Below are positions 18,775 to 39,238 of a stretch of DNA of 40,353 nt, piece after piece; the stretch's first letter is position 1; each line of letters opens with the position of its first letter. This DNA is from a virus. Under the pieces are notes generated by a model that was not told the DNA's origin, did not search any database, and saw only the letters and a program-made list of their open reading frames with translations. A program made the translations under genes and the position numbers. The stretch spans positions 1 through 40,353 of the IMG/VR virus record IMGVR_UViG_3300046777_000444. One strand, written 5' to 3'.

Positions 18775-19187
18775 TAGTAGTGGTTGTTCCGTAGATGAAA
18801 CTTCATAGCACGGCAAGGTGTTTCGTAGCGATGAACTATGTATTTGTAGGTATGTAGAATCTGAGTCAATGGGTCTGTGCTCTTCTCATTAAGACGCTGA
18901 CCTATGCCGAAGGCAGAAGAACCCTGCTGATTCTTTGCTAGGTGGTCGTATCTGCTTTCCTTTGTGAGGATGTAATCAAGACATCTCCACTCCATTTTAC
19001 GCCATCCATAACCCGCCCAGGCTACACGTTTAGCCAGTCTTTTGTTTGCTTTCTTTTCTTCCCACGTTGCGTGTCTTTGTTTTATTACTGGCTTTTCTTT
19101 CTGACTTAAGACTGGAGATAGGGTATGTGGCATTGATAGAACAAGAAGAACACCAACCCCCACACCCACAATCGTTTTGCGCTTCAT
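18774..19187 (-). CDS. Secreted lytic-transglycosylase-like protein, 137 aa
   Basis: The N terminus is a signal or anchor (MKRKTIVGVGVGVLLVLSMP). The C-terminal 75 residues read EWRCLDYILTKESRYD, SSAFGIGQRL, DPLTQILHTYKYIVHRYETP, matching the small transglycosylase-like domain of actinobacterial secreted wall proteins, with Glu77 in KES as likely catalytic acid. It probably acts outside the membrane on peptidoglycan. It sits next to whiB in the early cluster and not with the lysis genes. ATGA overlap with whiB sets the start. Confidence 0.8.
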   Translation of the reverse strand: MKRKTIVGVGVGVLLVLSMPHTLSPVLSQKEKPVIKQRHATWEEKKANKRLAKRVAWAGYGWRKMEWRCLDYILTKESRYDHLAKNQQGSSAFGIGQRLNEKSTDPLTQILHTYKYIVHRYETPCRAMKFHLRNNHY

Positions 19188-19537
19188 CGTTTGACACCCT
19201 TGTTTAGTATCTTTCTGACTCTGCGAATGAGAATCCATTCGTTCTTGTATGAATGTATGTTCTTATGTTTGAGCAACTTGATTCGCTCGTATGTAAATAA
19301 CCCACCCCAAATGATACCAGGAACTAGGTTCTCGCGTTCTAGCCCCTGCTGTAAGCATTCGTTCTTGACTGGACAGTCTCGGCAATACTCCAATGCCTCT
19401 ACTAGTCTTAAGACTTGATGAGTCCTAGCGTCTGGATTATCGTGCCCTTTGTATGACCAGAGGTCAGGGTCTGGATGCGCTTGACACAATGCCTGCTCGT
19501 GCCACGTTGGCACGTGCTTGACATTCTCTATCTTCAC
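19184..19537 (-). CDS. whiB: WhiB-family iron-sulfur transcription factor
   Basis: The four cysteines are at 18, 52, 55 and 61 (ALCQ, YCRDC, NEC), followed by GIIWGG at 74-79 and a basic tail (RRVRKILNKGVKR): the complete WhiB signature. The protein should bind a [4Fe-4S] cluster and host sigma factor to alter transcription. WhiB proteins are restricted to Actinobacteria and their phages, which fixes the host phylum. Start is GTG overlapping the preceding stop (GTGA). Phage WhiBs can block host WhiB2 and septation; whether this one does is unknown. Confidence 0.95.
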   Translation of the reverse strand: MKIENVKHVPTWHEQALCQAHPDPDLWSYKGHDNPDARTHQVLRLVEALEYCRDCPVKNECLQQGLERENLVPGIIWGGLFTYERIKLLKHKNIHSYKNEWILIRRVRKILNKGVKR

Positions 19538-22758: not shown

Positions 22759-23388
22759 TTATGCTCGGGCTATGAATCGCGTCCCGCAATTTTGACACAT
22801 TGGCTGGCACAATTCAAGAGTCTTGGCAGATAATCTGATTTTTTCTCCACATCGGCATTCCGCCACTTTAAGATTCTTGTTGCGTCCTGCGCCTTTTTTG
22901 ATTTGCTCGGCGTCTGCCATTAGAACTAACGCAGATTCGATAAGTTCGAGTGCGTCCGCCCATCGTGTCGCGCAATCGTCGCTTACCTCGGTCACGCTCC
23001 ACCCGATACCCTTGCCTTGTGTAATTGTGAGACCTAACGCCTCGGCGGTTTCCTTAAATTTCTTGTTGTGATACCCGTCCCCCGTCACGCCTTGGATTCC
23101 ATTTTGGAGGTCTAGGGAATGCGCGGTCTCGTGTAGAAGAGTGCCGAGGACGGCACGTGCGCCTCTTTCGAAATAGTTCGCAGAAATCATTATCTCGTGG
23201 AATTGGTCTTCTCCCGCTTTCCAAATCTTGGCGTGCGTGAAATGTCCCATAGTTCGCCCCGTCTTGCGGGTGACTAGAATCGTGGCGCGGGGTGCGCCCG
23301 TTTCCTTGCGGATAATTGCGTGAGCGTCTTCTAGTGCCTTAGTAATCACCGATAGATTCTCGGTTTTTTGGATTGTTTCGGTGTTCAT
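22759..23388 (-). CDS. SprT-like zinc metallopeptidase
   Basis: The active site HETAH is at residues 86-90 (LLHETAHSLD) with a likely third ligand in GYHNKKF (His107). The C-terminal 40 residues have CRCGEK and CQNCGTRF, the zinc ribbon of SprT/Spartan-type proteins. In cells such proteases remove proteins crosslinked to DNA; here it may clear host proteins from phage DNA or act on another target. The start follows GACGGGAGAAGAA. It is flanked by folded RNA on both sides. Confidence 0.85.
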   Translation of the reverse strand: MNTETIQKTENLSVITKALEDAHAIIRKETGAPRATILVTRKTGRTMGHFTHAKIWKAGEDQFHEIMISANYFERGARAVLGTLLHETAHSLDLQNGIQGVTGDGYHNKKFKETAEALGLTITQGKGIGWSVTEVSDDCATRWADALELIESALVLMADAEQIKKGAGRNKNLKVAECRCGEKIRLSAKTLELCQPMCQNCGTRFIARA

Positions 23389-24275: not shown

Positions 24276-24368
24276 ATATAATATATATAAATATTATATA
24301 GATATCAGGTGCCCATATTCTGACCGTTTATCTGGGGCGTTTATGTTAAGTTTTAACGGGGGTATTTG

Positions 24369-26234
24369 ATGGGACGTAAATCGGGTAAAATCGATATCCC
24401 AAAGGGCGAGGCTATGGAGCGAGTGCTCGAGCAACTTCGCCAAGGTAGCACCATAAAAGGGGCTATGGAGTCGGTTAACCGAAACGAGGTTACCTTCCGA
24501 CAATGGGTTATGGCTGACCCTGACTTTAAAGAGCGAAGCGATAAAGCCCGTCTAGAGGGCAAAGGGGTCAAGGCTGACCTAAAGAACCTAAAGGATATCT
24601 CCTTTGAGGAATTCTCTGAACAGTTTCTAGATACCAAGATTTTTCCACACCAAAGAACCTGGGTCGACCTGATTGAGGGTCGTGAACCTTCTTGGGTCCA
24701 CCCAGCGATGACCTTTGAACAAGGGGCGCATAACCGAGTTCTGATTAACGTTCCCCCTGAACACGCCAAGTCCACGGTACTGACCATCAACTACGTCACC
24801 TACCGAATTGCCACAAACCCAAATATCAGAATCATCTTGGTCTCCAAGACCCAGGGTATGGCACGAAAGTTTTTATCTGCGATTAAGACCCGCTTAAGCC
24901 ATCCGTCTTGGATTAAACTCCAAATGGCTTTCGGTCCTAACGGTGGATATAAGGCGGACTCTCCTACGTGGTCCGCCGATATGATTTACCTAGGTACAGG
25001 TCGTGATTCTGGCGAGAAAGACCCTACGGTGCAAGCCTTGGGTTTTGGTTCTCAAATTTACGGTGCACGTGCCGACCTGATTATCCTAGACGATGTCGTG
25101 ATGAACTCCAATGCCCACGAGTGGGAGAAGCAAATTGAATGGCTTCAGAAAGAAGTTATCACGCGTTTGGGTCGACACGGGAAACTACTTATCGTAGGCA
25201 CCCGTGTTGCACCCGTTGACCTTTACAAACAAATAAGGGACGGCTCTAACTGGACTGGTGGTAAATCGCCATTCACTTATATGGCAATGCCTGCAGTCCT
25301 CGAGTTTGATGAGAAGCCTGCTAACTGGAAAACGTTGTGGGCAAAGACGGACCGCCCTGAGGGCGAGAATGATGAACCTGATGAGCAAGGACTATATCCA
25401 AAATGGGACGGACCCGCTCTCTTCACTAGAAGAAGCGAAGTGGCACCTTCTGTCTGGGCAATGGTCTATCAACAAGAAGATGTCACCGAGGACGCGATAT
25501 TCCCGCCAGCAGCAGTTGCAGGATGTGTCAACGGTATGCGAAAGCGTGGACCGCTTAAACCTGGTGCTGCAGGGCATCCAAAACAAATCGAGGGTTATAC
25601 CGTTATAGGTCTTGACCCAGCAATGACGGGTAACACCGCTGCTGTGGTTACAACATACAACAAAGTTGACGGAATGATTTATGTGCTTGACTGCATAAAT
25701 ATGACAGACCCAACTCCAACAAAGATTAGAGACCTGATTGAAGATTGGGTCCAAAGATATAGACCACAAGAATTACGAATCGAAATCAATGCCCACCAGA
25801 AAGCCTACGCACTCGACGATGACTTGCGAAACTGGCTCTCAATGTACGGCTGCCAACTCAACTCTCACTTTACTGGTAAAAATAAGTGGGATACTTCTTT
25901 CGGTGTGGCTTCTATGTCGAGCCTTTTTGGTTCTCTTCGAGATGGAAGATTTCAAGACAACAATTTAATAGAACTACCAAGCAATGAAGGTAGCGAAGGT
26001 CTTAAGGCGCTAGTTCAACAATTGATTACTTGGAAGCCCGAGACCAGAAATGCAACCGACTGCGTGATGGCTCTCTGGTTTGCTGTGATTCGTTTACGTG
26101 AACTTATGCAAACAGGAACTCAGAAACAACGCTGGGTTCAAAATCGTTGGGCTACAAGAGCACAAACTCAACGTCGAATGTCAGTAAACATTGATGAAGC
26201 CATTGCAGAACAATGGCAAGGAATATACGGATAG
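24369..26234 (+). CDS. terL: Terminase large subunit with N-terminal helix-turn-helix
   Basis: DNA-packaging motor and nuclease. The ATPase has the variant Walker A VPPEHAKST (128-136) and Walker B LIILDD (237-242). The RNase H-like nuclease has GLDPAMTG (Asp416), RIEINAHQ and NATDCVMALW as acidic positions. Residues 12-62 (RVLEQLRQGSTIKGAMESVN, TFRQWVMADPDF) look like a helix-turn-helix normally found in small terminases. I see no separate small subunit beside it, so this fusion may supply DNA recognition. TTG at 24366 is an alternative start. Confidence 0.93.
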   Translation: MGRKSGKIDIPKGEAMERVLEQLRQGSTIKGAMESVNRNEVTFRQWVMADPDFKERSDKARLEGKGVKADLKNLKDISFEEFSEQFLDTKIFPHQRTWVDLIEGREPSWVHPAMTFEQGAHNRVLINVPPEHAKSTVLTINYVTYRIATNPNIRIILVSKTQGMARKFLSAIKTRLSHPSWIKLQMAFGPNGGYKADSPTWSADMIYLGTGRDSGEKDPTVQALGFGSQIYGARADLIILDDVVMNSNAHEWEKQIEWLQKEVITRLGRHGKLLIVGTRVAPVDLYKQIRDGSNWTGGKSPFTYMAMPAVLEFDEKPANWKTLWAKTDRPEGENDEPDEQGLYPKWDGPALFTRRSEVAPSVWAMVYQQEDVTEDAIFPPAAVAGCVNGMRKRGPLKPGAAGHPKQIEGYTVIGLDPAMTGNTAAVVTTYNKVDGMIYVLDCINMTDPTPTKIRDLIEDWVQRYRPQELRIEINAHQKAYALDDDLRNWLSMYGCQLNSHFTGKNKWDTSFGVASMSSLFGSLRDGRFQDNNLIELPSNEGSEGLKALVQQLITWKPETRNATDCVMALWFAVIRLRELMQTGTQKQRWVQNRWATRAQTQRRMSVNIDEAIAEQWQGIYG

Positions 26235-26240
26235 GAAACT

Positions 26241-28025
26241 ATGGCACTATCGATTGAGCAGATTGCTGCGCGAGTTACTTCTCTGCGCTATCGCGCTGCA
26301 GACAGGGACCAACGCAACCTAGATGTACTTGCTGTACGCAAAGGTCAAATCTCTACTGTCTATCCTGATTTCTTTCCAGACGGAGTAGATGCAAATGTCG
26401 TTGCAAACTTTGTTGATATTGTGGCAAGAGACCTTTCAGAGGTTATGGCACCACTACCAGCGGTTAACTGTAATGCCGCGAATTCGGTTTCTGACCGCTC
26501 TCGTAAGTTCGCTGATACTCGCACTCGCATTGCCTCTAACTATTTTGCTCATTCAGATTTATCTGTACAGATGTATCAAGGGGCGGACTGGTACATAACC
26601 TATGGATTCCTCCCGTTCATTATTGAACTGGATGAAGAAGCAAAACTGCCTCGCATACGCGTAGAAAACCCAATAGGTGCTTACCCTGAGTTTGACCGCT
26701 ACGGACGTTGCGTTGCTTTTGCAAAACGCTACACAATGACACTAGGTGAATTGGTCTCACTATTCCCTGAATTCGAGTATGAGTTGCTTGGCAAACTACG
26801 CTATGAGCAAGACTTAACTCAACAGGTTGAGATGATTCGCTACTACGACAAAGACCAGTCGGTGGTTTATTTGCCTACAAAAGAAAACTTAGTTCTTTCT
26901 AAGGCTAAGAATCCATTGGGCAAGATGATGATTGTTGTTGCTCGTAAGCCGTCTGTCGATAATGAAATGCGTGGTCAGTTTGACGACATTATCGGTATTC
27001 AGTTGCTTCGCAACCGTTTTGCTTTACTTGCTATGGAAGCAGCAGAAAAGTCTGTTCAGGCTCCTATTGTTCTTCCATCCGATGTACAAGAACTTATGCT
27101 TGGTGGAGATGCGGTTATCCGCACAAACAATCCAGGTGGAGTTCGCCGTGTAGAACTTACATTGCCACAAGGCGCATTTACAGAGCAGACATTACTCAAT
27201 CAAGAAATGCGTGTCGGTGCACGTTATCCAGAAGGACGTACTGGAAACGTTGATGCATCAATTGTTACAGGACAAGGCGTACAGGCTCTTATGGGAGCAT
27301 TTGATACGCAAGTTAAGAGCGCTCAAGCAATCTTTGCGAGCGCCCTGCGCGATGTTATTTCTGTATGTTTTGAGATTGATGAAAGAATTTTCCCTGAGCA
27401 AAAGACCATTCGTGGTGTTGACTCTGGTAGCCCATATGAAATTACATATAATCCTCGCAAGGATATCAAGGGTGACTACTCAGCAGATGTCCGCTACGGA
27501 ATGCTCGCTGGTCTAAATCCAGCACAAGGTCTAATCTTTATGCTCCAGGCTCTCGGTGGTGGATTAATTTCTAAAGATTTGGCTATGCGCGAACTTCCCT
27601 TCACAGTCAACGTCACACAAGAACTTGAAAAGATTGAAGTTGAAAGTATGCGTGCTGCGCTGCTTGGCTCACTTACTGCCTATACGCAGGCAATCCCTGC
27701 GATGGCAACTCAAGGTGGCGATGCATCTGACGTAGTACGTAAAATTGCTTCAGTAATCAAGTCTCGCCAAAAGGGTAAGGCGCTAGAAGATGCGATTGAG
27801 GAAGTATTTGCTCCTCAAGCACAGGTTCCTTCTGCTGGAGCCGTCCCTGAAATGGTTGAGCAACCGTCCCCTGCTCCCTTGGGTGCTCCAGTAGAAGGCT
27901 CTCCTTCACCAGAGATACCAACTCCAGCACCAGCAGCAGGCGCACCAGACATTTTAAGTCTTCTATCATCCATATCTGGAGCAGGAGAAGCGAACGCAAG
28001 CGTAAGAACTATTCGACGAAGATAA
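26241..28025 (+). CDS. Portal protein, 594 aa
   Basis: Follows the terminase by six bases, with AGGAAACT before ATG. The sequence pattern (GADWYITYGFLPFIIELDEE, RVENPIGAYPEFDRYGRCVA, then QFDDIIGIQLLRNRFALLAM) and length match phage portal proteins. The C-terminal 70 residues are Pro/Ala-rich and probably disordered. It forms the dodecameric ring for DNA entry and attaches the tail. Confidence 0.88.
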   Translation: MALSIEQIAARVTSLRYRAADRDQRNLDVLAVRKGQISTVYPDFFPDGVDANVVANFVDIVARDLSEVMAPLPAVNCNAANSVSDRSRKFADTRTRIASNYFAHSDLSVQMYQGADWYITYGFLPFIIELDEEAKLPRIRVENPIGAYPEFDRYGRCVAFAKRYTMTLGELVSLFPEFEYELLGKLRYEQDLTQQVEMIRYYDKDQSVVYLPTKENLVLSKAKNPLGKMMIVVARKPSVDNEMRGQFDDIIGIQLLRNRFALLAMEAAEKSVQAPIVLPSDVQELMLGGDAVIRTNNPGGVRRVELTLPQGAFTEQTLLNQEMRVGARYPEGRTGNVDASIVTGQGVQALMGAFDTQVKSAQAIFASALRDVISVCFEIDERIFPEQKTIRGVDSGSPYEITYNPRKDIKGDYSADVRYGMLAGLNPAQGLIFMLQALGGGLISKDLAMRELPFTVNVTQELEKIEVESMRAALLGSLTAYTQAIPAMATQGGDASDVVRKIASVIKSRQKGKALEDAIEEVFAPQAQVPSAGAVPEMVEQPSPAPLGAPVEGSPSPEIPTPAPAAGAPDILSLLSSISGAGEANASVRTIRRR

Positions 28026-28038
28026 TTTAGGAGGGGAC

Positions 28039-28575
28039 GTGACAACAATTATTGGAATCGAATATGATGATAAAAGCGTCATCGTTGCCGATAGCAGAGT
28101 AGTAGATGATTCTGGAAGAGTTTACGCACACAAGGTAATGAAGAAGATTGCCGAGCGTGGAGCAATACTGATTGCAGGAGCAGGAGAAGTTGCTCCTTGC
28201 GATATAGCCCAGAATATCTGGAATCCACCAGCATTTACTGCCAAGGATAAAAAAGACCCTTACAAGTTTATGATTGTAAAGGCTATGCCTTCTCTGCGTA
28301 AATGCTTAACCGATAACGGTTATAATTTTGATGAAGATAAAAAAGACGGTATGCGCTTTCAGTTCTTAATGTCTGTAGGCGGAGAACTTTTTGATGTAGA
28401 TGAAGACTTGTCTGTTATGAAAAATGAAGACAACTTCTATGCTATTGGCTCAGGTGGTCCATTTGCATTGGGCGCATTATATGCAGGAGCAGAGCCTATG
28501 CAGGCTATGGAGATAGCATCAAAAGTTAGTGCATATTCAGCAGCACCGTTTTATACTGAAGAACAATATAAATGA
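28039..28575 (+). CDS. Proteasome/HslV-like Ntn hydrolase, candidate capsid protease
   Basis: After removal of Met the protein would start TTIIGIEYDDKSVIVADSR. Thr1 with Asp17 (ADSR) is exactly the spacing of proteasome beta subunits and HslV, a KK pair near 33-35 (VMKKI) fits Lys33, AGAGEV fits the Gly47 region, and YAIGSGGPFALGAL matches HslV AIGSGGNYA. So the catalytic set looks intact in 178 residues. Position right after the portal is that of prohead proteases. GTG start with AGGAGGGGAC. Alternatives are interference with the host proteasome or another peptidase role. Confidence 0.85.
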   Translation: MTTIIGIEYDDKSVIVADSRVVDDSGRVYAHKVMKKIAERGAILIAGAGEVAPCDIAQNIWNPPAFTAKDKKDPYKFMIVKAMPSLRKCLTDNGYNFDEDKKDGMRFQFLMSVGGELFDVDEDLSVMKNEDNFYAIGSGGPFALGALYAGAEPMQAMEIASKVSAYSAAPFYTEEQYK

Positions 28576-28799
28576 GCAGGTTTAATGACGCCATAAACAA
28601 CGCAATGCGTGTATTGGCTGAAGAACTAGAAGACTCTGAGAACCAAATCTGCACAGGATGGGTTCTTGTAAGCGAATGGTCAGATTTTGAGGGAACTCGA
28701 TATCTAATGACCGATGTAAGCGACAATATGAATCCTTGGCTTGCCAAAGGAATGCTATTGAGCGCAGAAGAATATTCATACTCACCAGAGGAGAAGTAA
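28572..28799 (+). CDS. Hypothetical protein, 75 aa
   Basis: An acidic protein (FNDAINNAMRVLAEELEDSE, QICTGWVLVSEWSDFEG, YLMTDVSDNMNPWLAKGML) that looks folded, with ATGA overlap to the protease gene and TAATG overlap to the next. The type is common in actinophage head modules; function unknown. Could be a partner or inhibitor of the protease, which is speculation. Confidence 0.72.
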   Translation: MSRFNDAINNAMRVLAEELEDSENQICTGWVLVSEWSDFEGTRYLMTDVSDNMNPWLAKGMLLSAEEYSYSPEEK

Positions 28800-29305
28800 T
28801 GGTTAGCGGAGGATTTCGTCCTAAAGCAAAGCAGAACAATCCTATGAGCGTTTCTGGTACTGGTGGAGACGGACAATCAGGAAAGTTCGTGGCTGAAAAA
28901 GTTGCTAAAGCAACTCAACTTCGTCCATCTGGATTTCCTCAAGGAGAAAACAAGGCTATGGCACAAACAATTTCAGAAGGTGGCAACGTAAAGACAACAG
29001 CATCTGCTGCTAATCCAGCATCAAATGTTCCAGCCCCAAGTGCAAGCCTTTCAAGTTTAATGTCAGCAATAACTCCACTAGATGCGGAGCCAACAGAATA
29101 TCTTCCAATCTCTGATGGTGTTGATTTTGGCAAAGGTCGTGGTAGCGAAGTTCTTCCTAGAAGTTTAAATCCTGACGCACGTCAGATTGAGAATGTAACT
29201 TTAATCAAGAAGTATGCACCAGACCTTCTGAACGCAGCGCGTATGCCAGGAGCACCTGATTCATACAAGAGAATGGTTAATGCCCTTCTACGAGAGACGT
29301 TCTAA
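28799..29305 (+). CDS. Disordered head-module protein, 168 aa
   Basis: The first 110 residues are low-complexity, rich in Gly, Ala, Ser and Pro (SGGFRPKAKQNNPMSVSGTG, NPASNVPAPSASLSSLM). The C-terminal 60 form a folded-looking helical part (RQIENVTLIKKYAPDLLNAA, YKRMVNALLRETF). I chose ATG 28799 at the TAATG overlap; an in-frame ATG further upstream (28736) lies inside the previous gene. Possibly a minor head protein. Confidence 0.7.
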   Translation: MVSGGFRPKAKQNNPMSVSGTGGDGQSGKFVAEKVAKATQLRPSGFPQGENKAMAQTISEGGNVKTTASAANPASNVPAPSASLSSLMSAITPLDAEPTEYLPISDGVDFGKGRGSEVLPRSLNPDARQIENVTLIKKYAPDLLNAARMPGAPDSYKRMVNALLRETF

Positions 29306-29307
29306 CT

Positions 29308-29511
29308 GTGTGGTTGGAGAATACATTCTTTGACCATTTAGACAAATTCGGTAACTCCCTAGGTTACGAAAACTTTGGGATTGCTTTTATGCTGTCTATG
29401 GTTCCCTGGGAAAGTCCAACTGATAGAGATAACTTTATTAGAGACATAACAGGTCAAGATGTTAAGGGCGGAGAGCCATCTAACTTTAATCCAGAGATTT
29501 TGGAGTTCTAA
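29308..29511 (+). CDS. Hypothetical protein, 67 aa, GTG start
   Basis: GTG two bases after the previous stop. The product (WLENTFFDHLDKFGNSLGYE, FGIAFMLSMVPWESPTDRDN) is compact and hydrophobic but without a clear membrane helix. Its TAA overlaps the start of the 1,758-residue protein. Small partner of that protein is possible; no family recognised. Confidence 0.65.
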   Translation: MWLENTFFDHLDKFGNSLGYENFGIAFMLSMVPWESPTDRDNFIRDITGQDVKGGEPSNFNPEILEF

Positions 29512-32500
29512 TGTCATTTTGGGATACCTTCAAGAAGTCTCTAGGTGGCGACAAAGATGCTATGCAGAAAATTGTCGACACTCTTTCACCTTGGAATATT
29601 GCTAAAAGAAATATCCAAAACAATACTAAGCGCGTTCTTGGTGCTGCAAAAGAAGTTGCAGAAATAGCGCAACCAATTACAAAGCCAGTTGGTCAGGCTT
29701 TAGGATATCTTGGCAAAGGAGCACTTGCTCCATTTCAGGCATTTGGTATTCAACCAGGCGCATCTCCAGCAGGCGGTATTCTAAAAGCAGGAGCACAGAT
29801 TGGCGCTTCTCGCGCTGCTGCTCAACTTGAAACTAATTATGGCATCAAGTTAAATGATTCTTTACGTGACGGTATGGCTGAGTATGCTGCTCAAACTGCA
29901 GCAGAGGCTGCTATCCCATTTGACCCAATGTTATGGGTTTCAGCACAGGCTGAAGAAAAAGTATTTAGTCCATTAATAAAGCGTCCAATATCTACAGCAG
30001 CACTTTTAACTGACCCAAACAGCCCTCTCTATGAGAATGATGCTTATGGAAAAGGTTTACAACTTAGTGATTTACAGACCGCTTATCAACGTACTGGAAA
30101 TCAATACGAAATTATTGATGGAAAAGAAGTTCTTGTAAGTCCAGGAGTATCTCTTGGTGTAGCCCTTACAAAGTCTTATCTAAATCCATTCCACGTAACT
30201 GGTATATCTGATGCCATCCTTGAAGATGGCGGTATTGATATTGACCGAGTTAATCTATGGGATGACCAAGATGTACAAAGTAACTTTACAGATAATACAA
30301 CTGGTCGATGGATGACTGGCTTTACAGATGCGTTAGTAGGAAACGTTGCAATTGTTGGTGCTGTAAATAAATCTATCTCTGCTATGAAAGCAGCAGCAAG
30401 AGCAGCAGGCTTTAATACAAAACTTAATGTTTATGATGGCGATGCTATCAACAAACTTGAGAAGTTGGCTGACGACCACCTAAGTGGTCAATCGCAAACT
30501 GTATTTGGTCAGGATATTGTTAATCTTGCTGGCACTAAAGATATTGTTTTAATTAATAAGATTCTTAAACCACATTCAAATAACCCTCGTCTAGCATCTT
30601 TAATCAAAGAAACTGAAGACCCAGCATTCGTAAGAGACTTACTATTGGCTGATAAGGGCTACGCCCCAGCAATTAATCGTCTTATGACAGCCCAGAAGGC
30701 TGATGATTTGTGGTATTTATCTAATGCATCTGATGAGATATTTGCTGACTTTGCAAAAAATGGCAAGTATCGTTCATACAATGCACAGGCTAAAGAGCGT
30801 TGGAGCCAAGCATTTGATGATGCTATTGCTAAGAATCCTGAATCTCAGCGTATCTTTGATGCGTTTATGCGTGACCAATTTGACGCACAAACAGGTAAAT
30901 TTATACCAGAGCCTAGAGTTCTAGGTACAACTTATAAGCCAGCAGAACCAATTGTTGGTAAAGATGTATTTATCAAAGGGCGAGAATTCAAGCAACGCTT
31001 TGGTGCTGCTACTGAAGTTCGTGACTATAGCAATATCGGTGGAGTTGCCCAGACTCTTATCGGTGGTGGACGTCGTGGAGATGCAGTAACTGCATTAATT
31101 AAGTTTACTGGTGGCAAACTTCCTAGAGGAATTATCAGCCATTCAGGTCTTCGCCCTCAAGATATGGTTGAAGAATTAAATGCTTGGTTAGATGATATTC
31201 CTTTGTTTTCAAAAGGAACTAATACAATAAACCTTGCAGATGGAACAGTAGTCAAGGCTGCAGACTATCGCCGTAACATTATTGATAAGGCTTTAATGCT
31301 TAAGACTGATGGCGAGCGCGAAGTATTCTTTAAGGCTATGACTAAAGAAGTTGGCGTAGATGTTATGGGCACAATGGGCGTAGGCAGAGTCCGTGCACAA
31401 CAATTCGTAGATGACTTTATGGATGACCTAAATAAGTATCACGGGGACCTTAAGCGTGACTCTTATGCTATGGACCCAAGTGGTGTTCGTACAGTTATTG
31501 ACCCACAAACACAGCGTCAGTTGGTAAATGCTACTCCACTTTTACCTCTTGGCAAGATTGTCCGTGAGGCTAAAAGAATTCAGGGTTCATTTGACCCAAC
31601 TAATAATACATTTACTGATGCTGGTAGAACTATATTTGAACTTGGAAATAAGACGTTCTCATTTGCACAGTTAGTACGTCCAGCATATGTTCCAAAGAAC
31701 TCTATCTTCGAACCATTAAATGCTGCAATTATGTCTCAAGGCTCAAAGGTTCTATTTGATGGTGCTGAGACATTTGCTAAGAATACAATCTTTAATAATA
31801 AGAATCGTTTTAATCAGGTTGTTAATAAGGCTAATATCAAGAGTGCAGCCAGACGTAGAGCATTAAAACAAGAATATGCTCAGTACTCTGAACAGTACGA
31901 GAAGGCAGTTGACCTAGTTGATAGGTCTACAGCAGAGTGGGTTGAGTTCTTTATCAATCCAAGTTCTCGTTCTCCAGTAGTTAAAGCAGAATATGCTGAC
32001 ATTGTAAAGAGTGAACTAAGCGCAGCGGAACGCCTTATCGATAAACTTGAAACAAAAATGCGTAATAGGGCTAGAGAGTTTGGCGTAGAAAGAGAACAAG
32101 TTCCGACTCTTTATGGTTTAGTTCGCCGAACTCAATATCTTAAGACATTAAATGACCCAAGAATTGCTGGCGATATCAGGGCTGCAGAGTTGGCTATCAC
32201 AAAGGCTGCAGGAGATATAAATACTTTAGCGCCTGATTTGAATAATCTTAATAAGAATATCAAGACTGCCTATGATGATATCGATAAACTTCTTGTTGAT
32301 ATGGGTCCAACCCGTAAGAAGTTAGCAGATGAATTCTCTGTTGTTGATAACGCAAGAATCCGTCGTCGTGGTCGTCAAGAGCCTGATGGCTACGTAATGA
32401 GCAATGGTCAAGTAATAAAGATTCCTCGCCTCGAAAGCGAAAATAATCTAGGTACTTCCTATAAGGCTGAAATATCTAACAGACATACCCGCGAAATGGA

Positions 32501-34787
32501 AATCCTTGGAGATAAGACATTCGCAAAGGGTATTCAGATGTTGGGTCGTAGAAGCCCTAATCGTATTACCGATGTTACTGACCCTCTTTATTTTGACGAG
32601 TTAGCATATACAGTAAATAACTTTATGCGAGGCGATGTACTTGTTGACCAGATTCTTGCTGGTCGTACTCGTAATGAAATCATTGAAAACTGGGGATTAA
32701 AGCGTGGCGGTAGGTCATACGCTGAAGAATTCGGTAGAGATGCATCTGACATCATCGATATGATTGATGACCAAATTTCATATGTCAATCGATATCTACC
32801 AACACTTGAGGCAAAGGCTGCAGCAGCAGCGGGCGAAGTTCGTGGAAACCAACTTGCCCAATTACTAGGAGATAAACTAGATAGATTAACTCCTATCAAT
32901 CCTCTTGAAAACAAATATGCAACACCTATTGAGCAGTCTAAAGATTTCTTAGATGCAATTGATAGAGCCTCAAGCAAGGCTTGGACGCTATTAGGTGCTC
33001 CTGAAAATGCTATTCGCTGGGCTTGGGGTAGCGTTGAGTTGAAAGCAAGAACTGTTGAGAAGTTAGAAATGCTTGCTGCTCAAGGTTATTCAATAGATGT
33101 ATCAACTATTAACTCAGTCCGTCAGGCTGCAGCAGTAGAGATGGTTAAAGAAGCAGAAAAAACTTTCTACTCTATTCGCCGTCAGAATCGTGGATTGTAT
33201 GCAGCACGTACAGTTCTATCGTTCCCAGCAGCATCTGCTAGCGGTATATATCGTTATACCCGATTTGCTGCTAAAGCGCCTCAGCGCATTGCAGGATTCT
33301 TAAACTCTTATTATGGTTTATTTAATACTTTTGGCGTAGACAAGTATGGTAATCCAGTAGAAGACCCATTCGATGCTGAGTATTTATTAGTACCAGGAAC
33401 TAAAGAACTTGGTCTAAATAAGGGTCGCGGGGTTATGGTTGGTACTAGGGCTGCTAACTTTATTGCTAACTTTGCTGGTCCTTCATATCTAATGCCAAGT
33501 TCACTTGGAGCCGTAGTAGCCCTTAAACCTGGTAATGATAAAATTATAAGAGATGCTATTAATACTTTCTTTGGAAAAGTTCCTGGATATTCATATGAAG
33601 AACTATTCCCATATGGACTAGAGCCTGATTTAGCAAAACAGGCTAAACAAACATTTACTCCAGCCTGGTTAAGAAACTTTATGCTTTATGTTGCTGGAGA
33701 TGACTCAAAGAAAGACTGGGTAGATTCATATACCTCTGAGTGGAATTACCAGATGGCTCTTTATGAAATGGGAATTGGTAAGGCTCCAACAGAAGAAATG
33801 ATTGTCAAGCAAACTAAAAAGAAATTCAGAGAGAAGTTCTTATGGCAGTTTGCTTCTCCACTTGGAACTGCAGCAGTAGTTGATAATAGACCAGATAGCA
33901 TTTTCTCGACTTACTTTAGGGCTGCTGTTGATAAGTATAAAGGTATGGGACTTAGCGATAGAGAGGCTAAGAAGCGGGCAGAAGATGACCTTAATGCCAG
34001 AGTATCTGTTACTGGTAAGAAGGTTGAGTTCCCAATGGACCGCTTGTATTTTGGTTCTAAGCGTAAGCCAAAGGCTGCTTATATAACTCCAACAGTTGAA
34101 GGTTATAAGCGAGTATGGGAAGAATTCTCTGGTCTTGCTAAAGACCTTGCTGTAAAAGATAAGAACCTAGTTGGCTTGATTACTGCAGACCTAAGAGGCG
34201 CAGATACTGATGCCAATATAGCAAGAGTTTTAAATCGACCTGGCACAACTTTGCCTGATGGAACTGTTTTAAACTTACCACTTAAGTCGGTAGCCGATGT
34301 TGAAAAAGACATTGAAGTATCTCGAGTATGGAAAGCATATGGAGATTATAAGAGACAACTTAATGAATTGGCTAAAAAACAGCAGTATGCAAGTTACTCA
34401 TCAGTTCCTGAACTAAGAGATGCTCTTAAGGCTTACGCTCTACAACTTGGTCAGTTTAGTGAAAATTGGCTATTTGAATACAATCAAAGAGAGTCAAAGG
34501 ATATATCTTATCAATATGCCTGGGGCTTAACTAAGATTGTTAAAGATAATAAGTTTATGGAAAAGCACGGCAATACTCAGTTCTGGACTCACGCAGAAGC
34601 CATTATGAGATACCGTGATGATTATGTGAAGTTATATAAAGATGCTCCAACGGGTACAAAGGGCATAGTTCAAAATGCCTGGAGAGATTATGTTAACTCC
34701 GTACTTGATGTAGTCGACCCTAAGTTGGCTGACATCCTAGATAGATACTTTGAAAACGACAATCTAACAGAGGTGAACATTGACTAG
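29511..34787 (+). CDS. Giant internal or structural virion protein, 1,758 aa
   Basis: The largest gene of the phage. It begins with MSFWDTFKKSLGGDKDAMQK and has a 230-residue helical front, long charged helices at about 760-1000 (for example SAARRRALKQEYAQYSEQYE), and hydrophobic segments near 1290-1350 (NFIANFAGPSYLMPSSLGAV). No tape-measure repeats or catalytic motif were recognised. Length and position between portal and scaffold fit an ejected internal virion protein of a short-tailed phage. Membrane-active segments would be consistent with DNA ejection. Inference from context. Confidence 0.65.
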   Translation: MSFWDTFKKSLGGDKDAMQKIVDTLSPWNIAKRNIQNNTKRVLGAAKEVAEIAQPITKPVGQALGYLGKGALAPFQAFGIQPGASPAGGILKAGAQIGASRAAAQLETNYGIKLNDSLRDGMAEYAAQTAAEAAIPFDPMLWVSAQAEEKVFSPLIKRPISTAALLTDPNSPLYENDAYGKGLQLSDLQTAYQRTGNQYEIIDGKEVLVSPGVSLGVALTKSYLNPFHVTGISDAILEDGGIDIDRVNLWDDQDVQSNFTDNTTGRWMTGFTDALVGNVAIVGAVNKSISAMKAAARAAGFNTKLNVYDGDAINKLEKLADDHLSGQSQTVFGQDIVNLAGTKDIVLINKILKPHSNNPRLASLIKETEDPAFVRDLLLADKGYAPAINRLMTAQKADDLWYLSNASDEIFADFAKNGKYRSYNAQAKERWSQAFDDAIAKNPESQRIFDAFMRDQFDAQTGKFIPEPRVLGTTYKPAEPIVGKDVFIKGREFKQRFGAATEVRDYSNIGGVAQTLIGGGRRGDAVTALIKFTGGKLPRGIISHSGLRPQDMVEELNAWLDDIPLFSKGTNTINLADGTVVKAADYRRNIIDKALMLKTDGEREVFFKAMTKEVGVDVMGTMGVGRVRAQQFVDDFMDDLNKYHGDLKRDSYAMDPSGVRTVIDPQTQRQLVNATPLLPLGKIVREAKRIQGSFDPTNNTFTDAGRTIFELGNKTFSFAQLVRPAYVPKNSIFEPLNAAIMSQGSKVLFDGAETFAKNTIFNNKNRFNQVVNKANIKSAARRRALKQEYAQYSEQYEKAVDLVDRSTAEWVEFFINPSSRSPVVKAEYADIVKSELSAAERLIDKLETKMRNRAREFGVEREQVPTLYGLVRRTQYLKTLNDPRIAGDIRAAELAITKAAGDINTLAPDLNNLNKNIKTAYDDIDKLLVDMGPTRKKLADEFSVVDNARIRRRGRQEPDGYVMSNGQVIKIPRLESENNLGTSYKAEISNRHTREMEILGDKTFAKGIQMLGRRSPNRITDVTDPLYFDELAYTVNNFMRGDVLVDQILAGRTRNEIIENWGLKRGGRSYAEEFGRDASDIIDMIDDQISYVNRYLPTLEAKAAAAAGEVRGNQLAQLLGDKLDRLTPINPLENKYATPIEQSKDFLDAIDRASSKAWTLLGAPENAIRWAWGSVELKARTVEKLEMLAAQGYSIDVSTINSVRQAAAVEMVKEAEKTFYSIRRQNRGLYAARTVLSFPAASASGIYRYTRFAAKAPQRIAGFLNSYYGLFNTFGVDKYGNPVEDPFDAEYLLVPGTKELGLNKGRGVMVGTRAANFIANFAGPSYLMPSSLGAVVALKPGNDKIIRDAINTFFGKVPGYSYEELFPYGLEPDLAKQAKQTFTPAWLRNFMLYVAGDDSKKDWVDSYTSEWNYQMALYEMGIGKAPTEEMIVKQTKKKFREKFLWQFASPLGTAAVVDNRPDSIFSTYFRAAVDKYKGMGLSDREAKKRAEDDLNARVSVTGKKVEFPMDRLYFGSKRKPKAAYITPTVEGYKRVWEEFSGLAKDLAVKDKNLVGLITADLRGADTDANIARVLNRPGTTLPDGTVLNLPLKSVADVEKDIEVSRVWKAYGDYKRQLNELAKKQQYASYSSVPELRDALKAYALQLGQFSENWLFEYNQRESKDISYQYAWGLTKIVKDNKFMEKHGNTQFWTHAEAIMRYRDDYVKLYKDAPTGTKGIVQNAWRDYVNSVLDVVDPKLADILDRYFENDNLTEVNID

Positions 34788-35889
34788 GTATAGAAAAAGT
34801 ATGTTACCACCTGCCCCACAGTTACCAACTATCAGTGGTAAAGGTAGCAAGAAGACCATTAACTATATCTGGATGCCAGATAAGAATGGCGTTCTAGTCA
34901 AGAAAGACTCTGCTTTTGTAAAGAAGAACTTTGCCAAGTTATCTGCATCAGCGCAGAATGCGCTCGCAGAGTATGTCATTGGAGTTCAGAATCGTCAGCC
35001 TACTGATGCAGCCCGCAAGACTGTATATAACAGCATCATTGATGCAGCAGTTGCTGCCTACAAAGAAGGCAAGAAGCAGACTCCTTGGGATGTATTAGAA
35101 GTTCAACTTGCCAATACTCCACCGATTCTTAATAAGAGTATTGCCTATACAAACTACGATAAGTTCTCTACAGATGCACTTCTTCGTAAGATGGCTAAAG
35201 ACCTTGGATTCCCTCCAGCAGCCATCACAGATGCTGACCTATCCGACTTCTTTAGCAAGGTAACAGAATCAACAAAAGCGGGAGCAAAGCAGACTCAAGT
35301 TATTATTGGACCTGACGGAACTCAAGAGACAATCACAACTCCTGCTCAATTTGATATCAATACATTTGCACAGAACTATCTATGGTCAAAGGTAAATCTA
35401 GGTGATGCTAAGTCTTTACCTACTAGCGTAATCAATCAGGCTAATGCCTTAAGAAACATACTTAAAGATAATGGTCTACAACTTAGTGACAAAGAAGTAA
35501 CTAAATATAGTTATGACATTGCTAAAGGTGATAAGACAATAGCAGATTTACAAAGAGACTTTAGTGAAATGGCAGCAAAGTTGTATCCACTTTACGCTGA
35601 CCGTCTTCGCGCAACCCCTGGTCTTACTGTAAGAGAAGCAGCATCTTCAATCTTAAATCCAATTGCTGCTGCTTGGGAAATAGACCCAAATGAATTAGAT
35701 ATAACTGACCCAAACATTGACCAGTTCATCAGACCAGATGGAGTAATTGGTAAGGCTCAACCTAAATCTGCTGCGGAGGTTTCTATGTGGGCTATGAATC
35801 ACCCTAACCGCGAGAAGACAAAGGCTGAAATTTCTAGAGCACAAGATGCAGCAGTTCAGTTCGCACGAGTAATGGGATTTGGAGTATAA
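34780..35889 (+). CDS. Structural protein, 369 aa
   Basis: Mostly helical, with Ala- and Lys-rich segments (KKNFAKLSASAQNALAEYVI, LLRKMAKDLGFPPAAITDAD) and a QVIIGPDGTQETITTP strand pair. I use TTG 34780, which lies a few bases after GAGGTG and overlaps the previous stop; ATG 34801 is the alternative. The segment DLRQAG-like of its neighbour is absent. Probably a virion or internal protein acting with the giant protein. Confidence 0.65.
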   Translation: MTRYRKSMLPPAPQLPTISGKGSKKTINYIWMPDKNGVLVKKDSAFVKKNFAKLSASAQNALAEYVIGVQNRQPTDAARKTVYNSIIDAAVAAYKEGKKQTPWDVLEVQLANTPPILNKSIAYTNYDKFSTDALLRKMAKDLGFPPAAITDADLSDFFSKVTESTKAGAKQTQVIIGPDGTQETITTPAQFDINTFAQNYLWSKVNLGDAKSLPTSVINQANALRNILKDNGLQLSDKEVTKYSYDIAKGDKTIADLQRDFSEMAAKLYPLYADRLRATPGLTVREAASSILNPIAAAWEIDPNELDITDPNIDQFIRPDGVIGKAQPKSAAEVSMWAMNHPNREKTKAEISRAQDAAVQFARVMGFGV

Positions 35890-37410
35890 ATGGCAACCGA
35901 CCCTAGAGAAGATAGAGTAATCCCATCTGCTGCAAATAATTGGGGTGCCAAGACTAAAGACGTAACAGTCAATGGTGTTACATATAAAGGTGCTATTGAT
36001 GTAGGTTCAGGTAAGCCACCTGCTGCTACTAAAGTAGGAATGGTTTCGCCTTCTTCAGGTTTAACAATTACTGGCACTGAGCGCAATATGGCTAAAGAGC
36101 GCGAGGCAATGAACATTGGCTATACTAAAGAATACATAGCATCTCGTGGTGGTATCAACTCTCAAGGTTATTTTAATGACACCCCAATATCTGGTCAGTT
36201 AACTGCCGAAGAACAGCGTCGAGTAACTCTTCCAAATGGCACAGTTAATACTGGCGCTATGGCTGAAATTCTTCAAAGAAAACAAATAGCAGAATTAATA
36301 TCTCAAGGTGTAAGTGAAGAAGAGGCTTACCGTAGAGTTACCAGTCAATATGGTGACTTTGGAATTTCCTACACACCATCAGGCACAGGCGGAACTGATA
36401 TGGGTGGAATGGGTGGTGGAACCTTTGGAACTGGCACAGGTACTGGAACTGGAATGGGAACATCTGGAACCCCAACAGCGCCATTTACGGCACCAGGAAC
36501 TTTACTAGCAAAAGATGTTTTTAAAAATACTCTAGCAACACTTCTTGGAGCAACTGAAGCAGCAAAACCTTGGGTAGATGCTTTATATGATGTTGTTTCT
36601 AAAACATATAAATCAGGTATGGATATTGGAAATGCAATCAATATCTCACTTCAAGAAGCAAGAAATAATCCAGCCTTGCAATCATTTACTGACCGATTCA
36701 AAGGTTGGTATTCAATTCAAGACTTAAGACAGGCTGGCAAGCCTATTCAGGTTCCTACTCTTGCTGAGTTCGTGGCATCTCAGGCTGCACTAGGTGACAT
36801 ATTCCGTAGAGCAAACCTTGAAGACTTAGCAACTGAAACATTTACTGGAGATATTTTAGGTACTGGAAAGTCAGTAAGTACCATTACTTCAGCAATTGCA
36901 AATGCTTTCAATAGAATTGACCAAGCGCCTCAGGCGATTAAAGATACTTTGAGCCGATACTACCCAACAGTAGATAGAACAACTTTGGCTAGAACATTGC
37001 TTCTTGGAACAAAGGGCGTAGAACAACTTGTTGATGAACTCGGTAAGTATGAAGTTCTAGCAGCAGCAGAGCAACAAGGTATTGCAGCAACTGGAGCAAA
37101 GCCTATTACTGGCGGAGTAACTGAAGAGCGTGCAGGAGAATTTGCACGTATGGGTGGAACTTATGCTTCATTAATGCCCAAGTTTGCAGCAGTTAGAGAA
37201 GTAACTCCTGTTGTTTCTAAACTTGCTGGAATTTCTAGAAGAGGAGATATCGGTCAAGTTGGTGTAGAGCAAGCACTTATTAGTGGACTTGCACAACCGT
37301 TGGAAGATATCAGACTTCTTGGTGAAGAAGAAATAAGCCGATTCTCTGGAAAAGCAGGACGAGCAGAGGTTGGACTTGCATCACAGCGCAGAGCAAATCG
37401 CGCCTACTAA
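35890..37410 (+). CDS. Structural protein with Gly/Thr-rich linker, 506 aa
   Basis: Starts immediately after the preceding stop. Residues about 165-205 are a Gly/Thr/Met linker (GGMGGGTFGTGTGTGTGMG) between an N-terminal part (VNGVTYKGAIDVGSG) and a helical C-terminal half (LAEFVASQAALGDIFRRANL, EVLAAAEQQGIAATGAKP). It likely completes the internal or head structure with the two genes before it. No family recognised. Confidence 0.65.
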   Translation: MATDPREDRVIPSAANNWGAKTKDVTVNGVTYKGAIDVGSGKPPAATKVGMVSPSSGLTITGTERNMAKEREAMNIGYTKEYIASRGGINSQGYFNDTPISGQLTAEEQRRVTLPNGTVNTGAMAEILQRKQIAELISQGVSEEEAYRRVTSQYGDFGISYTPSGTGGTDMGGMGGGTFGTGTGTGTGMGTSGTPTAPFTAPGTLLAKDVFKNTLATLLGATEAAKPWVDALYDVVSKTYKSGMDIGNAINISLQEARNNPALQSFTDRFKGWYSIQDLRQAGKPIQVPTLAEFVASQAALGDIFRRANLEDLATETFTGDILGTGKSVSTITSAIANAFNRIDQAPQAIKDTLSRYYPTVDRTTLARTLLLGTKGVEQLVDELGKYEVLAAAEQQGIAATGAKPITGGVTEERAGEFARMGGTYASLMPKFAAVREVTPVVSKLAGISRRGDIGQVGVEQALISGLAQPLEDIRLLGEEEISRFSGKAGRAEVGLASQRRANRAY

Positions 37411-37534: not shown

Positions 37535-38005
37535 ATGAGCAACAACTACTGGGATGAAGAAGACGACGACCTAGATATGCCAGAGGCTCTCGAGGGCAAT
37601 GACTTAATTAAGAAATTAAGAAAAGCCAAGAGGTCTGATGAGAAACGTATCAAGGAACTTTCAGAACAACTAGAGGGATTCCTCAAGGAAAAGAAAGAAC
37701 AAACAGTTCGTCAAGTCCTAGAAAAGAAGGGCGTAAACGCAAAGGCTGCACGCCTAATTATGAAAGACTTGGATGATGTTAACGAAGAGGCAGTTAATAC
37801 CTGGCTCGATGATAATGCAGACTTGTTTGGCATAAAGGTGTCAGACGCCCCCGCAGTAGATAAGAATGATTTGGCTGCGTTACGTAACCAAGATGTTCTT
37901 ACTCAGGGAGCGGTTACTCCCGACAGGGCAGAAGACTTTGAAATGCGTCTTAACAACGCAGGTTCAGCAGAAGAAATTCTGAGTCTTCTCCGTTCACAAG
38001 AATAA
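37535..38005 (+). CDS. Probable scaffolding protein, 156 aa
   Basis: Very acidic N terminus (WDEEDDDLDMPEALEGNDL), a central charged coiled coil (KKLRKAKRSDEKRIKELSEQ, FLKEKKEQTVRQVLEKKG), and a short C-terminal helix (AEEILSLLRSQ), right before the major capsid gene. This is the classic layout of scaffold proteins that shape the procapsid. It may be removed by the Ntn hydrolase at 28039. Confidence 0.8.
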   Translation: MSNNYWDEEDDDLDMPEALEGNDLIKKLRKAKRSDEKRIKELSEQLEGFLKEKKEQTVRQVLEKKGVNAKAARLIMKDLDDVNEEAVNTWLDDNADLFGIKVSDAPAVDKNDLAALRNQDVLTQGAVTPDRAEDFEMRLNNAGSAEEILSLLRSQE

Positions 38006-38035: not shown

Positions 38036-39238
38036 ATGTCAAACCAATATACATCAACCGCGAGTACATCACTCGGTGGTTCCGTTGGTGGCGCAGGTCT
38101 CGTACAGAAGGCGTATGACCGTCTTCTCGAGTTCGCTCTCCGTTCCGAACCCCTAATCCGTTCGGTCGCAGATAAGCGTCCTGCTCGCCAAGCATTTCCT
38201 GGTGCAACAGTAGTTCTACAGAAGTATGTAGACCTAGACCAGGCAACAACTGCTCTAACTGAAACAACAGACCCAGATGCAGTTTCGTTGTCAACACCAA
38301 CATCTGTAACCATTACTCTTAACGAGTATGGTAATGCAGTTCTAGTAACCCGTGCTCTTGAGTTGTTCTCATTGGCAGACGTAGACCCAGCGATTGCAAA
38401 CATCATTGCTTACAACCTCGCTGACTCTATCGATACTGTTGCAATGAACACCTTGAAGTCAGGTTCAAACGTACTATACGGCGGAAGCCGTACTTCAACC
38501 GCTACCCTTACTGCTTCTGACACAATTGACTCAGCAGACATCCGCAAGGCTGTTGCTAAGTTACGTGCTAACAAGGCTAAGGCTCGTCGCGGTAGCGAAT
38601 ACTGGACAGGTATCCACCCAGAAGTTTCACACGACCTTCGTGCAGAATCTGGTAACCTCGGCTGGAACTTCGTTCACGCTCAAACAACTCCATCTGTTAA
38701 CAACATCTGGGCAGGCGAAATCGGAACATACGAAGGTGCATTCTTCGTTGAGTCCCCACGTTTGTACAATGCTAAAGATGGTGCTGACCAGACCGCTCTT
38801 GCTACAACCGCTGTAACCGTTGCAGGTACTTCAGCAGGCTTCACCTTCGGTGTTGCTTCTTCTTCCGTCATTGCTTCTCGTGCAGAAGTTGGCGACAAGA
38901 TTGCTGGAACAGGTATCGCTTCAGGTGCAAAGATTTCTGCAATCGCAACATCTGGTTCAACCACAACAATTACTGTTGATACTGCTAACACTGGTGCAGT
39001 TTCTGCTACAACTACTGTAACTGTAACTCCAGTAACACGTACATTCGATACAATCGTTTGCGGTGCACAGGCAATGGCAGAAGCCGTTGCTGAAGAGCCA
39101 CACGTAGTTATCGGTAACGTAACTGATAAGTTGATGCGTTTCCGCCCAATGGGTTGGTACGGCGTACTCGGCTTCGCAGTTTACCGTGACGAGGCTCTAT
39201 ACAGAATCGAAACTGGTTCTTCAATCGCTGCTCTCTAG
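38036..39238 (+). CDS. Major capsid protein, N4-gp56-like, with inserted beta domain
   Basis: The N-terminal 250 residues (VQKAYDRLLEFALRSEPLIR, VDLDQATTALTETTDPD, PTSVTITLNEYGNAVLVTRA) match the HK97-fold N4-gp56 family. The fold resumes at FDTIVCGAQAMAEAVAEEPH to the end. Between them, residues about 255-330 (GTSAGFTFGVASSSVIASRA, TTITVDTANTGAVSATTTV) read like a separate beta-sandwich domain, probably displayed on the capsid. The start follows AAGGAG with a rather long gap. Expected to be the most abundant virion protein. Confidence 0.88.
   Translation: MSNQYTSTASTSLGGSVGGAGLVQKAYDRLLEFALRSEPLIRSVADKRPARQAFPGATVVLQKYVDLDQATTALTETTDPDAVSLSTPTSVTITLNEYGNAVLVTRALELFSLADVDPAIANIIAYNLADSIDTVAMNTLKSGSNVLYGGSRTSTATLTASDTIDSADIRKAVAKLRANKAKARRGSEYWTGIHPEVSHDLRAESGNLGWNFVHAQTTPSVNNIWAGEIGTYEGAFFVESPRLYNAKDGADQTALATTAVTVAGTSAGFTFGVASSSVIASRAEVGDKIAGTGIASGAKISAIATSGSTTTITVDTANTGAVSATTTVTVTPVTRTFDTIVCGAQAMAEAVAEEPHVVIGNVTDKLMRFRPMGWYGVLGFAVYRDEALYRIETGSSIAAL

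Follow-up and report, generated by a model that had tools for sequence, protein, structure and literature searches.

Proteasome-like genes are widespread in phages, and phage proteasome homologues as such are already known: PPH and AAH were described in 2021 by Fuchs, Alva & Lupas (PMC8665760), who had few clues to the function of these proteins and did not find AAH in any phage specific to actinobacteria. A literature search on the function of phage HslV-like genes returned only that survey, in which no function is given (PMC12345140, considered as a further source, was irrelevant). The gene analysed here lies at 28039..28575 on the plus strand of the window, i.e. the whole 40,353-nucleotide stretch of IMG/VR record IMGVR_UViG_3300046777_000444, and encodes a 178-amino acid Ntn hydrolase of the proteasome type (hereafter Ntn). 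Like PPH, AAH and the members of phrog_1040, Ntn is encoded by a tailed phage, has a Thr right after the initiator Met and carries the same catalytic triad; it differs from PPH and AAH in occupying a portal-adjacent slot in an actinophage and in grouping apart from the AAH-like and PPH-like sequences sampled. PPH, at about 140 residues, is also shorter and has no second helix (H2). The closest solved fold is that of BPH (5ovs, 5ovt, 5ovu), a bacterial and not a phage protein, which is 24% identical to Ntn. HslV shares with Ntn the fold (Z about 18), Thr1, Asp17, Lys33 and the GSGG segment, but no HslU was seen beside the window gene. The Planktophila phages LanE43-AprE7 and AprF5 (PMC10202952) carry a related enzyme, designated type B, in the same slot. 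In Sinorhizobium phage phiM5, a podovirus unrelated to the window phage, a proteasome-like gene annotated as 'putative peptidase' also lies beside the portal gene; it is, however, of the PPH type, without the second-helix region, and is located between the terminase and portal genes (L070, 2090-2611), an independent portal-side placement.

The assignment of the window gene draws on Pfam, PHROG, AlphaFold and alignment. Its ORF opens with a GTG at 28039, the first start past the upstream stop and 13 bases after the portal stop, preceded by a strong ribosome-binding site, AGGAGGGG (28029..28036), that is kept in relatives. The product reaches 30.9 bits with Pfam Proteasome (PF00227), where the cut-off is 22.4, and 102 bits (E = 7.9e-29) with phrog_1040, 'peptidase HslV family'; on sequence grounds, both matches are far above chance. 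The initiator Met is immediately followed by Thr, with no propeptide, so that removal of the Met would expose Thr1 (codon 28042-28044). The first-pass annotation had claimed this Thr1, an Asp17 at exact spacing, a Lys pair near position 33, an AGAGEV loop and the IGSGG segment of HslV. Thr1, Asp17 (28090-28092) and the Lys33 equivalent proved identical in 75 of 75 aligned homologues (four phage lineages, an AAH-like set, a PPH-like set and Escherichia coli HslV), and the AGAGEV loop and the GSGG segment, with S137 (28450-28452), are both present. The Lys pair stood only in part: the loop ahead of the catalytic Lys exceeds that of HslV by two residues, so the counterpart of HslV K33 in the alignment is K35 (28144-28146), the invariant one, whereas K31 and K34 vary among the aligned homologues. 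Among 299 complete phage copies, Thr1 is kept in all and Asp17 in 298, although the former count is partly by construction, as these copies were chosen by a Thr-Thr-Ile start. The position of the proteasome Asp166 is occupied by S, T, D or N among homologues and by Ser163 (28528-28530) in the window; since it is not conserved, activity could be low or altered. Values of dN/dS among relatives range from 0.034 to 0.131, with synonymous sites near saturation in several pairs, and purifying selection on the gene is by this measure strong. In two relatives (L007:2542 and L008:2190), the Ntn start codon is ATT instead of ATG or GTG, with a good AGGAGG site ahead of it.

An AlphaFold2 model of Ntn, computed from 39 aligned proteins of the window and of viral contigs, has a mean pLDDT of 93.8 and shows the four-layer Ntn fold. 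Among solved structures, the model matches BPH best (Z = 19.1, 159 residues aligned, Thr1 superimposed on Thr1) and next 20S and HslV (Z = 17-18.5). Together with the catalytic residues, these matches uphold the fold originally proposed, and there is hardly any doubt that the product of 28039..28575 is a proteasome-like hydrolase. Membership of HslV was rejected (25.0 bits against TIGR03692, whose equivalog cut-off is 157.75), as was that of the actinobacterial 20S beta subunits (14.4 bits against TIGR03690, cut-off 191.9); the suggestion of an actinobacterial proteasome mimic is not supported, with 14 bits against the 192 set for the bacterial 20S beta model. PPH membership was rejected on account of the length of 178 residues, the helices at 51-60 and 74-92 and a position outside the PPH-like clade. 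BPH is the best profile match of Ntn (E = 2e-10), the tree being built without BPH sequences. In that tree, in which several branches are long and the deep joins unsure, the window type (A) and type B group together in a clade (100/99) that excludes the sampled AAH-like and PPH-like sets; types C and D, with DSL-LC01, make up a second actinophage lineage, also apart from these sets. The 16 AAH-like sequences, which were picked by taxonomic spread and motif and not taken from the alignment of the authors of PMC8665760, likewise form a clade of their own (100/99) without the window protein. A profile scan of genome contigs with the phage Ntn alignment found no cellular relatives; with an AAH-like bait, the AAH-like proteins found were mostly from Azospirillum and rhizobia.

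The window phage, a freshwater actinobacterial one, is a member of the same family as the cultured 'Ca. Planktophila' phages E7 and F5, its nearest annotated records being OX376640 (LanE43-AprE7, whose description matches E7) and OX376641 (presumably F5). E7 shares the gene order terminase-portal-Ntn-...-scaffold-capsid; its portal protein is 81% identical to that of the window, its Ntn only 44%. All head genes are on the plus strand: the terminase large subunit (24366..26234) is followed by the portal gene (26241..28025; 594 amino acids, phrog_104), which forms the left boundary of the slot, by Ntn and by g75 (28572..28799), a small acidic companion ORF that stands alone after the portal gene in three relatives (L391, L400 and L468). 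The right boundary is a g189 homologue (28799..29305; phrog_8200) which is kept in phages without Ntn; its ATG at 28799 is our reading, the ORF list placing the start at a TTG at 28736. Farther on lie a variable island (29511..37410) with ORFs of 1758, 369 and 506 codons, possibly for internal or ejection proteins, the gene for a scaffold-like protein (37535..38005; 156 amino acids) and that for the major capsid protein of the N4-gp56 family (38036..39238; TIGR04387). From this gene set, the window phage would have a podovirus-like morphology. Ntn had been placed between portal and scaffold; it does lie directly behind the portal gene, but the scaffold gene is about 9 kb downstream, beyond the island with its 1758-codon ORF. 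The island, noted previously as an 8-kb segment (PMC10202952), varies from phage to phage with no link to the Ntn allele; its genes are often without detectable similarity, TerL, portal and capsid proteins being about 75-90% identical.

Portal-based scans of viral contigs, pooled with loci found earlier, provided 345 usable loci, which are not independent counts as some come from the same contig. The slot holds Ntn of type A at 184 loci, type B at 72, type D at 22 and type C at 10, and a partial or untyped copy at 7. At 46 loci, it contains instead an unrelated ORF of 73-89 codons (L225:5791-6060, L278:5786-6013, L261:3996-4235 and 43 others), and at 4 loci neither, g75 alone being found behind the portal gene. 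The small ORF and Ntn never occur together (0 loci). When portals more than 96% identical and with the same allele were merged, 16 of 142 loci were without Ntn. The product of the small ORF has a basic N-terminus and an acidic C-terminus and gave no Pfam match. The portal-adjacent position is kept in hundreds of loci, where Ntn mostly starts 13-18 bp behind the portal gene, but its occupant is swapped, replaced or absent in others. Between the Ntn lineages found there, the measured pairs share only 31-45% identity, and the head genes around them stay constant. When the six slot states were mapped on a portal tree, which came from a quick search and has SH-aLRT as its sole support measure, 25 changes were required; the minimum is 5, and shuffled states required 52 on average. 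The literature search returned no report of an exchangeable portal-adjacent slot or of the mutual exclusion of Ntn and a small ORF in it; both features appear to be new.

The clearest case of exchange is provided by two loci, L436 (type A) and L417 (type D). Their DNA is 94.4% identical through the portal gene to the start region of Ntn, cannot be aligned inside the Ntn ORF, where the proteins are 31% identical, and is again 89.7% identical over 980 bases just downstream. As read from these alignments, the difference is a gene-exact exchange of the Ntn ORF. Replacement of the enzyme within a conserved gene order, at the same spacing and behind the same ribosome-binding site, suggests selection for having an enzyme of this kind expressed at this stage, and also that its target is other than the adjacent head proteins. 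This phage lineage offers a natural experiment: near-identical phages with different proteasome homologues or with none. Unrelated phages also have homologues of type A, 53-60% identical to the window Ntn and so closer to it than E7's own; their neighbour is a lysin-like gene, or they stand isolated among genes of the opposite strand. One of the isolated copies (L128:8001-8531) looks like a recent insertion. Distant homologues have as neighbours thyX and tRNA genes (Pumpernickel), WhiB (DSL-LC01) or PhoH (ESCO5), or lie ahead of the terminase gene (LeeroyJenkins).

Since the slot is swapped, replaced or empty in close relatives, Ntn is an accessory and not an essential capsid-maturation enzyme; and since the head genes are unchanged in all these situations, its target most likely lies outside the conserved head machinery. 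The reading that we favour, with a probability of about 0.5, is that Ntn is a retained, catalytically plausible and exchangeable accessory hydrolase which acts on the host, as far as can be judged from sequences and a structural model. The initiator Met would be removed to leave Thr1 exposed, the subunits would assemble into a ring like that of BPH or HslV, and the enzyme would cut or trim some protein during infection. Its substrate could be a host regulatory or defence protein, degraded or processed by Ntn; variation of this target between hosts could drive the turnover of Ntn alleles. For the host- or defence-directed role taken separately, the odds are, in our estimate, slightly below even, and against it stands the late-operon, portal-side position, which fits a role in the virion equally well. 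A more specific version, speculative and in our opinion rather unlikely, is that phages of Nanopelagicales use the slot behind the portal gene as an allelic counter-host locus, in which gene-exact recombination would match the phage to the targets or defences of its hosts by exchanging divergent proteasome-like proteases and the small acidic replacement protein. If true, this would make a proteasome-type enzyme a phage counter-defence tool. With cultured relatives (E7 and F5) and a cultured host, the function of Ntn is directly testable.

The strongest competitor, though we consider it improbable at roughly half the weight of the favoured reading, is an optional processing of the virion, in which Ntn would trim the portal, scaffold or large island (ejection) proteins of a head that also forms without it. 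The constant distance to the portal gene over hundreds of loci, a likely late co-transcription and the location of the related phiM5 peptidase between terminase and portal genes are all consistent with it. However, exact swaps to enzymes only 31% identical occur between portal and downstream genes whose DNA is 90-94% identical, and close homologues of Ntn are found outside head modules. In addition, the phiM5 record flags portal, scaffold and capsid proteins as detected in the particle proteome and does not flag the peptidase. The same family of large island ORFs occurs with allele A (L002), with allele B (L132 and L142) and with no Ntn (L225). Co-evolution of Ntn with island proteins as its substrates was rejected for the same reason, the g1758 family being found with either allele and with none. 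A general contribution to late-infection proteostasis, in which an HslV-like chamber would act by itself or together with an AAA+ unfoldase of the host, is less probable still. The fold and the similarity to HslV and BPH speak for it, but no unfoldase was found among the scanned ORFs, the sole AAA match being a DnaB-like replication ATPase, and it is not obvious why a housekeeping function should promote a rapid exchange between four lineages. The late position of the gene is compatible with the host-directed, virion-processing and proteostasis readings alike.

It had been proposed at first pass that Ntn matures the capsid as an obligatory prohead protease with a fold new to this class, a reading that we now regard as very improbable. 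The gene does lie behind the portal gene, and the accompanying claim that the head module has no other protease candidate was borne out by Pfam, PHROG and TIGRFAM-type profiles. However, Ntn is missing from relatives that have these portal, scaffold and capsid genes, and no substitute protease was seen in them. Their portals are 78-82%, scaffold proteins 61-72% and capsid proteins 69-83% identical to those of the window; a 26-kb record (G001) has values of 82, 72 and 83%, respectively, and a 37-kb record (G007) of 79, 61 and 69%. Eight such records, 27-40 kb in length, gave no Ntn match at any position in a profile search in which two positive controls did match. These contigs are linear according to IMG/VR, so that a fragment with Ntn could be missing from one of them, but it would have to be missing from all. 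A hidden replacement protease was rejected, as nine ORFs near the slot in Ntn-less phages gave no Pfam protease match. Conservation of the head genes in these relatives indicates that Ntn is dispensable for a head built from such proteins. Furthermore, two phages whose Ntn homologue lies outside the head module, Psychrobacter phage D'Alembert and LeeroyJenkins, have another gene annotated as a head or capsid maturation protease. Ntn is thus, with high confidence, not an obligatory prohead protease: the gene sits beside that of the portal but does not go with the head module wherever the latter occurs, a warning that gene position alone is a poor ground for assigning a head-protease function. 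Least probable of all is that Ntn is a protein ligase or transamidase like connectase, a proteasome-like relative that acts as a ligase (PMC8665760), for the two-helix insertion that connectase has between strands 3 and 4 is not seen in the model of Ntn, where strands 37-40 and 43-49 are adjacent.

Elsewhere in the window, on the minus strand, a candidate SprT-like zinc metalloprotease is encoded at 22759-23388, in a non-structural region (25.3 bits, Pfam cut-off 25.6), and a WhiB-like Cys pattern at 19184-19537 agrees with a host among the actinobacteria, like that of the Planktophila phages.
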